Shown: positions 1 through 4,829 of the stretch, one piece after another | Layout of the letters: each line of letters begins with the position of its first letter | Numbering within the stretch: position 1 is the first letter of the stretch | DNA from: Oscillospiraceae bacterium | Lineage (GTDB): Bacteria; Bacillota; Clostridia; Oscillospirales; CAG-272 | Direction of reading: 5' to 3' | DNA length: 40,092 bases | Assembly: GCA_015065335.1 (NCBI GenBank) | Contig: SVQM01000007.1 | Span: forward strand, 1-40,092 | Program-made: the position numbers and the translations under genes | The notes under the pieces: model-generated | Databases searched by the model: none | What the model was told of the DNA's origin: nothing | The model's input: the letters and a program-made list of their open reading frames with translations, nothing else

Positions 1-2
1 AA

Positions 3-107
3 AACACAAGCGGTTTGGTGTGGCAGATGCTTTGTCATGTTCTCTGTTATGCCTTTTATGGGAAAAGCAGAAACATATCGCCGGTGACGGAGAATGGAAT
101 ATTTTAA
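3..107 (+). other. 3' end of an open frame cut by the window edge
   Basis: An open frame runs from the window edge to a TAA at 105-107 and ends in the residues SRNISPVTENGIF. The same SRNISPVT string ends the small ORF at 1437-1619, so this may be the tail of a related small gene. The rest of the fragment, a Cys-rich stretch, resembles nothing I recognise and has no similarity to the upstream part of the 1437 ORF. It may be an end fragment or only repeat DNA. Confidence 0.25.
62..90 (+). repeat. 29-bp direct repeat, copy 1
   Basis: These 29 bases, starting GAAAAGCAGAAACATATCGC, are identical to 1562-1590. After one or two differences both copies continue with AATGGA. Copy 2 lies in the last codons of the small ORF at 1437-1619. 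Copy 1 lies just upstream of the first dockerin gene. The pair suggests duplication of a gene end. Confidence 0.9.
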
Positions 108-127
108 AATTACACAACAAAAGGAGA
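96..127 (+). repeat. 32-bp gene-boundary repeat, copy 1 (contains the RBS)
   Basis: This stretch, starting GGAATATTTTAAAATTA and ending in the AAAGGAGA ribosome binding site, recurs at 819-850 with one mismatch. Each copy directly precedes a dockerin gene. The repeat supports a tandem duplication origin for the two neighbouring genes. Confidence 0.9.
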
Positions 128-133
128 ATTTTT

Positions 134-817
134 ATGAAGAAAATAACAGCATTATTTTTAGCAGTATTTATGGCGGTCAGCCTATCCGTGAATCTTTACG
201 CAGCTGATTTTGACGTATCAGATTATAAAAATCCGTTTACAGGTACTGCATATACCGAAGATGATTTTTACGGAAACGGAACTATTATCATTATTTTGTC
301 TCATGAGGCAAGCATTGAGTGGCGTGAGTATACCAAGGAGGACTTCCCCGAACTTGAGCTTGATTCTGTTGATACAAAAGATCCTGCATCTACGGACAAA
401 GAATTCATTCTTGGAAATCCGGAATATCGCAACTTTGTGCACATTACTTTGAAGGACAAGAGCAACAAAGCTGTAATTGAAGCAATAGAGCTTCTGTATA
501 ACAGAAATGATGATGACTATATGTCCGAAAATCCTAAAAAGGATATTCATTTAGCGCTGCCCATGTACAAAACATACTATGATAAACCTGATATAAATCC
601 GGATATCGATGACAACTTTTCATATACAATAGGTGATGTTAATAATGATGATATTTTAAACCTTACAGACGTATCGCATATGCTAAAATATATAGCAGGA
701 TGGGAAAATATTGAGATTATTTTTTTAGCTACAGATTTAAACGGAGATGATGTGATTACTCTTAGCGACGCATCTATACTTCTTAAAAAACTTGCAAAAT
801 GGGGAATATATAATTAA
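134..817 (+). CDS. Secreted subtilase-propeptide-like protein with C-terminal dockerin
   Basis: The gene encodes a 227-residue secreted protein. I start it at the ATG at 134, after AAAGGAGA, rather than at the track start at 20, because the signal peptide (residues 1-23, ending LYA) begins there. Residues 46-147 align with the N-terminal propeptide of the subtilase at 2154-4829: both have a G-[ND]-G turn, an H, a YTxxDFPE motif, and an Ile-rich strand followed by a helix. The module ends at PMYK, matching PSYK in the next protein. Residues 167-224 form a type I dockerin with two intact calcium loops (DVNNDDILNLTD and DLNGDDVITLSD), each followed by a helix. Dockerins bind cohesins on scaffoldins or the cell surface. 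There is no catalytic domain. I infer a free-standing protease inhibitor or chaperone; that role is untested. Confidence 0.8.
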   Translation: MKKITALFLAVFMAVSLSVNLYAADFDVSDYKNPFTGTAYTEDDFYGNGTIIIILSHEASIEWREYTKEDFPELELDSVDTKDPASTDKEFILGNPEYRNFVHITLKDKSNKAVIEAIELLYNRNDDDYMSENPKKDIHLALPMYKTYYDKPDINPDIDDNFSYTIGDVNNDDILNLTDVSHMLKYIAGWENIEIIFLATDLNGDDVITLSDASILLKKLAKWGIYN

Positions 818-818
818 G

Positions 819-850
819 GGAATATTTTAAAATTATACAACAAAAGGAGA
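819..850 (+). repeat. 32-bp gene-boundary repeat, copy 2 (contains the RBS)
   Basis: This matches 96-127 at 31 of 32 positions. It starts two bases after the stop codon of the preceding dockerin gene and supplies the ribosome binding site of the next one. In copy 1 the same bases contain the stop codon of the frame at 3-107, so copy 2 appears to carry a leftover of that gene end. Confidence 0.9.
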
Positions 851-857
851 GATATTT

Positions 858-1403
858 ATGAAAAAGTTAACAGCATTAACAGTTACACTCGTACTTTTAA
901 TCTTATCATTAGCACAGGTCATATATGCATCGGATGAAGGTTATATTGGGAATATAGGTGAAATCAGAGTAGGTCTTTATGAAGCTGAGCGTTTTGACTA
1001 TGATTCATTTCCCGGTGTAAAAATACAAATAATTAGATACTACAGCAGTTGCGGCTTCTATATTATGCTTGAAGAAAGGACAATTAAAGCTACAGATGAG
1101 GCGGTAGAGATCATAAAATCAATTATCGGAGATAATATCGAGTATATAATACCTTCTTATAAGACGATAGTATCCGGCGACCTCATGTGGTATAACGGAG
1201 ATGCTGATAGTGATTGGGATTGTGATCTTACCGATGTATCTCTTGTTCTGAAATATATTGCCAAATGGGATGTGCCCTTTGAAAATTCGGAATTCGAAGC
1301 CGTGGATTTATACAGAGACGGTAAGATAACACTTGTGGACGTAACTATTATGATGAAAAAGATCGCCGGATGGGACCAGAGCAAATGGCTGCCGGCACAG
1401 TAA
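858..1403 (+). CDS. Secreted short propeptide-like protein with C-terminal dockerin
   Basis: The gene encodes 181 residues with a signal peptide at 1-24 (MKKLTALTVT..., cleavage near VIYA). Residues 31-104 form a short form of the propeptide-like module of the upstream protein. SFPGVKI matches DFPELEL, and IMLEERTIKATDEAVEIIK matches ITLKDKSNKAVIEAIELLY. The module ends IEYIIPSYKT, close to the xYVEP end of subtilase I9 propeptides. Residues 113-173 are a dockerin with calcium loops DADSDWDCDLTD and DLYRDGKITLVD and helix ends IAKW and IAGW. The start is set by AAAGGAGA eight bases upstream. The gene lies 40 bp after its relative and is probably cotranscribed with it. Compared with the first protein, about 30 residues are missing from the middle of the module. 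Confidence 0.8.
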   Translation: MKKLTALTVTLVLLILSLAQVIYASDEGYIGNIGEIRVGLYEAERFDYDSFPGVKIQIIRYYSSCGFYIMLEERTIKATDEAVEIIKSIIGDNIEYIIPSYKTIVSGDLMWYNGDADSDWDCDLTDVSLVLKYIAKWDVPFENSEFEAVDLYRDGKITLVDVTIMMKKIAGWDQSKWLPAQ

Positions 1404-1732: not shown

Positions 1733-2023
1733 TTAAATGCTATGTCCTGCAATACGTTTCAAGATAAGCGAAGCATCTGACAAATTCAATACATTGTTAT
1801 TATCCATATCATATGAATGGAAATATTCATAAATGTCAACATCCCACTTGGCGACGTGTTTAAGAAGGAGCGATACATCAGAAAGATTATACTCACGGTA
1901 CGTGTCGCCTATAAAAGGTACTTCAACCCACCCATCAGGTATGTCATTGGCAAATGACACCGATGCAAAAACCGAGATAATGATACAAATAGCAATCAAA
2001 AACATCGAAAACTTTTTTAACAA
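1733..2023 (-). CDS. Dockerin-only secreted protein
   Basis: I start this gene at a TTG codon at 2023 rather than at the track ATG at 2053. TTG is followed directly by a typical signal peptide (LKKFSMFLIAICIIISVF) and lies seven bases after a perfect AGGAGG, which the track start would place inside the coding region. The product is 96 residues. After the signal peptide (cleavage near SFA) almost the whole mature protein is a dockerin. The second calcium loop, DMDNNNVLNLSD, is normal. The first, DTYREYNLSD, is two residues short and lacks the usual Asn/Asp ligands. The protein has no catalytic or inhibitor module. It could be a minimal cohesin-binding peptide or a decayed relative of the dockerin genes to its left. 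Confidence 0.7.
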   Translation of the reverse strand: MLKKFSMFLIAICIIISVFASVSFANDIPDGWVEVPFIGDTYREYNLSDVSLLLKHVAKWDVDIYEYFHSYDMDNNNVLNLSDASLILKRIAGHSI

Positions 2024-2056
2024 AACAATCCCTCCTAAACGATATATTCTCATCTA

Positions 2057-2153: not shown

Positions 2154-4829
2154 ATGAAAAAAATTATTAGTTCTATTATGTTGATATCAATCATTTTTTC
2201 TATATGTATCCCTGTTTTTTCCGATAACATAGATGACAATAACAACATAAATTACAGCCAAGCAAAAGATTCATTAAACTTTTGCGACGCTATACTTGAC
2301 AATGAATTTTCGGGTGATGGTGTTATATATGTGACTATGCATCACGATGTAAGTGATGTAGGGAAAATTTATACTCAATCTGATTTTCCGGAAATAGAAA
2401 TTGAAAATATTTTTGACATAACCTCAGCTAACATAAATAGTAAAAAAGAAGATTACGGACCTGATTTTAAGAACATATTAAAAATTATTCTTGTACATAA
2501 AGATAGAGATGGTGTTATTTCATCCATCGAAAAGCTACAGTTTAGAGCTAATGTCGATATATATTGGGTAGAACCCTCTTAAAAACTAACGTGTACAGAA
2601 GAGGTTATTATAGACAATTCGGAGCCTGTTTTTAATGACACATATTATCCATCTCAAAAATGGGTATATGATATTATTGGATTAACTGATGTATGGAGTG
2701 AATTCGATATTGATTGCAATTCTTTGAAAGTAGCAATAGTTGATAGGCATGGTGTTAAACAACATGAGGATATAGAATTGGAATCAGAAATAAATCTATA
2801 TGGTTCTGATTTTAATTATCAAACAGCCGGAAATCATGGTACTTCGTGTGCCGGCATTGTAGGTGCTACACAGAATAATGGGAAATGGGTTGCCGGTATT
2901 TGCAAAAATATTAGTATAATATCCATTATTCCTCCGAAACTATCATACAATGTTAATGATCCATCTGATTCTAATATTGTTTCTTTTTTTACAGATATAG
3001 TAAAGTGCCTTAATGATCATAATATTTCTGTCGCAAACATAAGTTTTTGCATTGAGGAACAGTATGTCTATGCCAATAAAACTTCTTGTGAGAATATAAT
3101 AAATAATTATCGGGGACTTTTAATATGTTCAGCAGGAAATAAAAATTTTGATGTTGATGATGAACCTCTCTTTCTATCAAGCTTTAATTGTAACAATATT
3201 ATTTCCGTTGGAGCTACAAATTCAAGTGATGAACTTTGGTATAAAAATAAACAATCAGGAACAAATTACGGAATCAAAAGTGTTGATTTGTTTGCTCCGG
3301 GACATGGGCTTAGTGTAATAATCGGTAGTGGTAGTTCATCTGATATAGAACTTGATGCTTATGGAACGTCTTATGCCGCTCCAATAGTCTCCGGCGTAGC
3401 TGCGCTGATAATGTCCGAAAATCCAAGTCTGGATCCCCTACAGGTCAAAGCTATCATTATGAATACGGTAGACAGAAGTGATGCTTTCATCGGTAAATGC
3501 GTCAGCGGCGGTAGAATCAACGCATACAGAGCTGTATATGTAGCACATGATCTGAAAGATAATGCTCCCGATACCGAAAGTCGTTACAACTCGAATTTCC
3601 TGTTCCATGCAAGCACAAATACTATTGTTAAATACGTAGGTATACACGGTACCCCTGATATGCCTTCAGAAATTAACGAAGTTCCTGTAACGAAAATAGA
3701 AGAACGTGCTTTTTATAAAAACACGTTCATCAGACAGATTGATATACCTTCAAATATTACGCGAATCGGTGAGGAGGCTTTCAGGCAATGCACGGCGTTG
3801 GAAACAGTTACCGTTGGCTCATCCATTATACAAGATAGAGCTTTTCTTGGATGTAATTCACTTGAAAACGTAACTCTCTCGAATAATCTTGTAGGTATAG
3901 GTGAAATGGCATTCTGGGATTGTAACTATGAATATATATCAGTCCCGAATACTCTGGTCGCCATCGGAGACGATGCATTTGCTCTGAGTTCGCATCTTAT
4001 TGTACCGGAAGGCTCGGATGTTCAAAATTACTTTGCATCAAAGGGTTACTCGATGCTTCTTATCACGGGCGGAAGTGTTTCCGGTTATCATAATGGCACT
4101 TTTGTTTATGTGGATCCCGATAATCCGGGAGGCCTTAAGAATATCAACATACCGGAATCCTATTTGGGTACTCCAATAACCTATATTGGCAGTCATGCTT
4201 TTGAAGATGCGGATAATATAGAGATGATCAATATACCCACCACCGTTACGTCCATCGGTTACAGAGCTTTCAGAGGCTGTGATAACCTTAAAACCGTGGT
4301 CATTCCTCCGTCGGTCACAAGTATTTCAAACAGCATGAACAGTACCATCGTTGAGGATTCACCCAATGCGACGATATACTGCACAAGGGCTTCGTCTGCT
4401 TATGGGCATGTGTTGCAGAATAATCTTTCATGCATTCATATGGAGACAAGAACAAATGACGCCGGGGATGAGTATGCGGTTGTGTGCGGACTGTTGGAAA
4501 AAGAGGGGAACGGAACAGAATATATTATTCCCGAGACTTTTGCAGGACTTACCGTAACCATGATCGATCCCGCTGCATTTTCATGTTCGATGGAAACTCC
4601 TTTTAACATGACAAAGATGTTTATTCCCGAAACTGTAGAAACGATCGGAGGCAATGCTTTTTCTGATTGTACTAATCTTACGGATGTTTACATATATTCA
4701 GATACAGCAACGGTAGGATTATACTGTTTTGCCGGTGTAGATACTTCGCATTTTAAAATACATTGCAAGTCCGGTTCTCCGGCATTTGTTTATGCGGCAA
4801 TTAACGGCTATACCTTTGTACTTATGTGA
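2154..4829 (+). pseudogene. S8 subtilase with propeptide and BspA-type LRRs, interrupted by an in-frame TAA
   Basis: Two track ORFs (2142-2582 and 2724-4829) lie in the same frame and are separated only by one TAA at 2580-2582. The bases after it read on as typical subtilase sequence (NDTYYPSQKW, then VAIVDRHG). Translation starts at the ATG at 2154 after GAGGTG. In full-length numbering: signal peptide 1-25, I9-like propeptide to about 142 (ending YWVEPS), catalytic Asp197 (VAIVD), His228 (HGTSCAG), oxyanion Asn329 (SAGN) and Ser406 (GTSYAAP), then LRR_5 repeats to the end (PSNITRIGEEAFRQCTAL type). All catalytic residues are intact. Both dockerin relatives upstream have Tyr at the position of the stop codon (PSYK, PMYK), so a Tyr to TAA mutation is the simplest reading. 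Restart near 2724, readthrough or an assembly error are alternatives. No dockerin or membrane anchor is present. Confidence 0.85.

Follow-up and report, generated by a model that had tools for sequence, protein, structure and literature searches.

Subtilase propeptides help their proteases to fold and inhibit them tightly, and free-standing mimics of such propeptides also inhibit subtilases; in the propeptide of subtilisin BPN', Glu69 and Asp71 cap helices of the protease (PMC6993865). Cellulosomes are also known to contain protease inhibitors. Those of C. cellulovorans are active (PMC3444338, PMC4305082), R. flavefaciens has dockerin-serpins, and surveys of cellulosomes name many dockerin proteins whose domains are of unknown kind, with 118 proteins carrying 155 of these domains in R. 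flavefaciens FD-1 (PMC2930009). A subtilase propeptide is not named among the cellulosomal inhibitors in the relevant passages of the three sources (PMC3444338, PMC4305082, PMC2930009). In the open-access literature searched (most subscription journals lie outside this scope) no description of dockerin-borne subtilase propeptides was found, which agrees with the initial annotation of this DNA, where such a group was taken to be undescribed.

The window is the whole stretch of DNA that was analysed, 40,092 nucleotides long. It is contig C117 of an assembly of 2.16 Mb that is 75% complete. A search of this genome with protein A gave about 100 dockerin matches and two cohesins (C48, C79) lie above the Pfam cut-off, so the genome has a cellulosome-type system. 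The coordinates and architecture first assigned to proteins A and B agree with the open reading frames and with PF00404 (Table 1), and the motifs quoted for them are present (GNG, DFPEL/SFPGV, EAIE/EAVE, PMYK/PSYK). Both dockerins are type I by the Pfam model, with 30.2 bits (E 5.3e-7) for A and 28.3 bits (E 2e-6) for B against a cut-off of 22.9. The modules are about 75-110 residues long, and a protease domain is absent from either protein by ORFs and Pfam scan. The small reverse-strand gene between B and the subtilase encodes a secreted, degenerate dockerin and almost nothing else; its product is matched by the dockerin of A (E 2.6e-6) and has no Pfam dockerin match.

Table 1. Features at the start of the window (positions in nucleotides of the window).
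Feature	Position	Strand	Evidence or remark
Leader of A	1..149	+	98% identity to C50 end, 150 columns
Protein A, 227 aa: signal-peptide-like start, propeptide-like module, type I dockerin	134..817	+	ORF; PF00404
Module of A	239..571	+	Profile match 239-544; BLASTP; foreign-propeptide profile; AF2
Dockerin of A	632..793	+	PF00404, residues 167-220
Protein B, 181 aa: signal-peptide-like start, shorter module, type I dockerin	858..1403	+	ORF; PF00404
Divergent, shorter propeptide-like module of B	930..1172	+	Link via C50 gene 1; AF2
Dockerin of B	1197..1364	+	PF00404, residues 114-169
Small secreted dockerin-like protein without module, between B and subtilase	1736..2053	-	ORF; match to A dockerin
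Subtilase signal peptide and propeptide	2154..2582	+	Closed by in-frame TAA after ...DIYWVEPS
Subtilase remainder, same frame: S8 domain, then BspA-type leucine-rich repeats	2583..4829	+	PF00082, PF13306

Sequence comparison shows that the module of A is descended from the propeptides of S8 proteases. By BLASTP it matches the propeptide of the downstream subtilase (31% over 95 aa, E 2e-12). Against a profile made from propeptides of other genomes only, A scores 53.9 bits (E 6e-19), and the best of 300 shuffles reached 4.5 bits. When 10 dockerin-borne or dockerin-like modules were compared with 14 protease-attached propeptides by hhalign, the probability was 98.7% (E 2e-16). The family concerned is that of the S8 propeptides of Oscillospirales-type genomes, to which A belongs directly and B only indirectly. 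Its nearest Pfam family is PF22148, the fervidolysin prodomain, which is matched by 10 of the 27 module family members (best E 5e-7); A and B give no match to it at E up to 10. The module had been called I9-type, but PF05922 (Inhibitor_I9) is matched by neither A nor B, nor by the local propeptide or the module members, and PF22148 takes its place. In another genome, the dockerin protein L068 scores 26.1 bits for PF22148 against a cut-off of 21, carries a strong dockerin (E 4e-16) and lacks an S8 domain, so the combination of propeptide and dockerin is visible with curated models alone. L195 is likewise above the PF22148 cut-off. The initial annotation had suggested a search for further dockerin proteins with the module, and since these were found, the module is not confined to unrelated catalytic proteins.

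Both modules had been said to align with the downstream propeptide. This is true of A and does not extend to B, which by BLASTP has no match to the local propeptide and reaches only E 0.6 against A; against a profile of the remaining modules it scores 4.1 bits, inside the shuffle range. Contig C50 has a paralogous cluster, however, and B does match its gene 1 (BLASTP, E 3e-7). Taken together, B and this gene align with the profile of dockerin-borne modules at 91.5% and with that of protease-attached propeptides at 74%. We infer from these alignments that B has the same propeptide origin as A and has diverged further. A detached subtilase propeptide on a dockerin protein is therefore established for A and is less sure for B, which is reached only via its C50 paralogue.

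How might such proteins work? A subtilase propeptide domain would have been cut loose from its protease and joined to a dockerin. The dockerin would display the modules of A and B on a cohesin-bearing scaffold, where they would still bind subtilisin-like proteases in trans as decoys or inhibitors, and the scaffold-borne proteins would thereby be protected. The likelier targets would be proteases that come from neighbours, from plant material or from a host; the cell's own co-assembled subtilase could be a target where it is encoded next door. We give a probability of about one half to the reading that A and B are dockerin-displayed, detached propeptides that still bind subtilases, mostly foreign ones. 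Inhibition by A and B is a putative function.

Detached modules occur well beyond this locus. The module was found in 14 of 395 genomes of the same family, 24 of 394 of the order and 18 of 391 of the class, in three surveys whose profiles and thresholds differ; a search for related loci with an S8 alignment gave only about a dozen that have this propeptide type. At the class level nearly all modules are ordinary S8 propeptides with an AEPD/AEPN end, and in the order detached copies are common. Dockerins accompany them in the window, C150, C50, L051, L068, L074 and L078, and dockerin-like ends with no Pfam dockerin match do so in L070, L071 and L076. The class is wider than first supposed and is not limited to dockerin proteins. 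Detached copies are also joined to SLH domains (L045), sortase-type anchors (L080, L065) and, in a different order, CotH (L197). Others lie in lipoproteins (L062/L084, L073, L077, L050), some of which repeat the module up to three times, or at the C-terminus of other proteins, among them L047, L054 and the BlaR1-type M56 peptidase of L088, which has an S8 gene adjoining. L086, L192 and L195 stand alone.

Several of these proteins deserve separate mention. The M56 peptidase L088:4444-6339 (PF05569, E 6e-49) ends in a propeptide module and lies directly upstream of its S8 gene, which has a similar propeptide; it is possibly a protease sensor. In L045:589-1887, two propeptide-like modules stand ahead of three SLH domains, and no S8 was found in the genome that encodes this protein. 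In L197:1294-3198 a propeptide-like module precedes the CotH kinase domain. A domain with the pattern YYGxYxG...AYExGxLTxxDI accompanies the module in several unrelated proteins (L050, L068, L054, L039:2007-2966) and has no Pfam match in the proteins scanned. L192:1273-1761 (163 aa) and L195:1267-1641 (125 aa) are stand-alone secreted propeptides that keep the capping residues. Their hosts belong to the same class and have complete genomes of 4.5-4.9 Mb, and the two proteins are good candidates for real inhibitors.

With hosts that include dockerin, SLH, sortase-anchored, lipoprotein and BlaR1-type proteins, detached propeptides may tentatively be seen as a general mobile surface module of Clostridia that binds or senses subtilisin-like proteases. 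The BlaR1-type protein would then be a transmembrane sensor whose propeptide receptor is paired with the adjacent subtilase, and this part is equally tentative.

Detachment has occurred repeatedly. On the module tree, supported branches require at least 6 switches between the attached and the detached state, and the best tree has 16. The locus of G421 reveals one route; a propeptide-S8-dockerin-like gene is followed there by a two-module dockerin-like gene. In its congener G397 (98% complete), the same neighbours are present, the S8 gene is absent from the locus and no S8 was found anywhere in the genome. The second module of the dockerin-like protein of G397 is 61% identical to the S8 propeptide of G421. 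Here the protease is missing from a syntenic locus and its propeptide is kept on a dockerin-like protein. The genome of the window itself shows two further steps towards detachment, the stop codon after the window propeptide and the free copy on C50.

It is somewhat unlikely that the module, although of propeptide descent, no longer binds subtilases and is reused as a structural, adhesive or sensing domain. The capping residues speak for such reuse, as they are lost in most dockerin-borne modules. The tail residues were read by eye, since hmmalign trimmed the diagnostic columns, and their numbering follows the sequence of subtilisin BPN'. By this equivalence, Glu69 and Asp71 have no counterparts in A (ALPM), B (IIPS) or the C150 module (ACPV). 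Asp or Asn occupies the second capping position in 27 of 30 attached and in 14 of 39 detached modules (p 5e-6), a contrast that loses its significance when relatedness is taken into account, with only 6 pairs left. Against reuse, several detached copies retain the full AEPN/AEPD tail (L086, L047, L054, L068, L192 and L195 among others). The choice of partners, from SLH and CotH to BlaR1-type M56, is unrelated enough to fit a reused domain, and so is the presence of up to three modules in one lipoprotein. Among the 20 module-bearing genomes, which are draft assemblies, 6 yielded no S8; two of those 6 are at least 97% complete by estimate, one of these being 8% contaminated, and G397, with its 98% completeness, is an example. 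In these genomes the target would be foreign or absent. Reuse fits less well with the S8 genes that often adjoin detached modules, at nine loci in all (window, G421, G008, G327, G489, G028, G433, G479, L088). This adjacency, noted by inspection of gene neighbourhoods with no formal control, is in part a product of tandem duplication.

No S8 gene other than the window subtilase was found in the 75% complete genome. The catalytic domain of this subtilase (2727-3473) matches PF00082 with E 4.4e-33 and has intact Asp, His and Ser motifs, and its repeats match PF13306 with E 2e-48. The frame from 2154 to 4829 has a single break, a TAA (2580-2582) that immediately follows the propeptide and that the initial annotation leaves unmentioned; the 748 codons past this TAA are open and keep the catalytic triad motifs. 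The stop codon possibly marks a pseudogene, a genuine split or a fault of the assembly. Both A and B are 0.75-2 kb away from this gene, A resembles its propeptide and the same pairing recurs at other loci, all of which would suit modules that act in trans on the neighbouring subtilase, either as chaperones of its folding or as its dedicated regulators. This role is nevertheless improbable. The TAA separates the local catalytic frame from its signal peptide, the copies on C150 and C50 have no S8 (a single S8 was found in the genome), B is far from any propeptide, and some genomes have no S8 that could be found. The suggestion of the initial annotation that the modules deliver a chaperone in trans is thus unlikely as a general role, given that the only S8 found in the genome is split by a stop and that no S8 was found in some relatives with detached modules, one of them 98% complete.

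Window and C50 share a leader. In an alignment of 150 columns, window positions 1-149 share 98% identity with the end of C50 (L039 2924-3073), both being contig ends, and on each contig the leader precedes a module-dockerin cluster; because of this identity, the two clusters are probably paralogous. Shorter copies of the leader lie at 816-878 and 1558-1598. C50 also has a free propeptide-like ORF, L039:816-1250, which within the genome is the nearest relative of the window subtilase propeptide (51% identity). The expected start of this ORF reads ATGAAAAAATAAC, one base out of frame relative to the paralogues, and so the ORF lacks an in-frame start there. This defect, the stop codon in the window subtilase and truncated S8 copies elsewhere could suggest that protease genes in decay left the detached modules behind as remnants that have no function today. 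We regard this as very improbable, since A, B and the dockerin genes of C150 (one) and C50 (two) are all open over their full length, each with a signal peptide and a dockerin. Moreover, A and the C150 paralogue, which is likewise detached, differ by 0.77 at synonymous (saturated) and by 0.28 at nonsynonymous sites, which indicates constrained sequence under strong purifying selection (the L088 pair, out of frame, was left out of this analysis). Together with S8 adjacency at nine loci, this selection argues for a kept function, maybe one that involves subtilases.

S8 propeptides have a ferredoxin-like fold. AF2 models from the family alignment show the ferredoxin-like order of elements in the A module (pLDDT 70.8, pTM 0.66) and strands and helices arranged as expected in the B module (pLDDT 89.4, pTM 0.77). 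Among the matches listed by Foldseek and VIA-align for A and B are RRM and ACT domains at Z 6-8 and no subtilase propeptide, which is not counted against propeptide identity; PDB sequence profile searches with the module gave nothing relevant. As these PDB matches are generic ferredoxin-like domains, the fold is compatible and not diagnostic. A and B are thus predicted to be ferredoxin-like as propeptides are, though this fold is common. A chance likeness of an unrelated ferredoxin-like domain, which the RRM and ACT matches would allow, has a negligible probability in view of the profile-profile alignment, the shuffles far below the real score and the sister dockerin protein above the PF22148 cut-off; it is contradicted for A and possible for B.

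One dockerin-associated domain of obscure kind gains an origin in this way. Should the modules inhibit subtilases, cellulosomes would have another kind of protease inhibitor, one derived from a subtilase propeptide; otherwise the modules would clearly exemplify a propeptide that was repeatedly turned to other use.

Among known systems, POIA1, the yeast proteinase B inhibitor, Arabidopsis SPI-1, TgMIC5 and Plasmodium SUB1-ProM (MEROPS I9) are likewise separate, propeptide-like gene products, and SUB1-ProM adjoins subtilase genes as the detached modules do here (PMC6993865). These mimics are eukaryotic and their inhibition was shown by experiment, whereas the present modules are bacterial, are fused to dockerins or surface anchors and are known from sequence; A and B, unlike the mimics, are missing the conserved capping Glu. 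The cyspins of Clostridium cellulovorans and the dockerin-serpins are protease inhibitors within the cellulosome, but the cyspins target cysteine proteases and the serpins have another fold, unlike subtilase propeptides (PMC3444338, PMC4305082, PMC2930009). The S8 prodomains of PF22148 belong to the same sequence family as the module members, with L068 above the cut-off; A and B lie below its reach and differ from these prodomains in having neither an attached protease nor the capping residues. Closest in build are the S8 proteases with a C-terminal dockerin or dockerin-like end (G421, G613, G008), which have a propeptide of the same family and similar ends. They keep the catalytic domain, and A and B resemble them minus that part.
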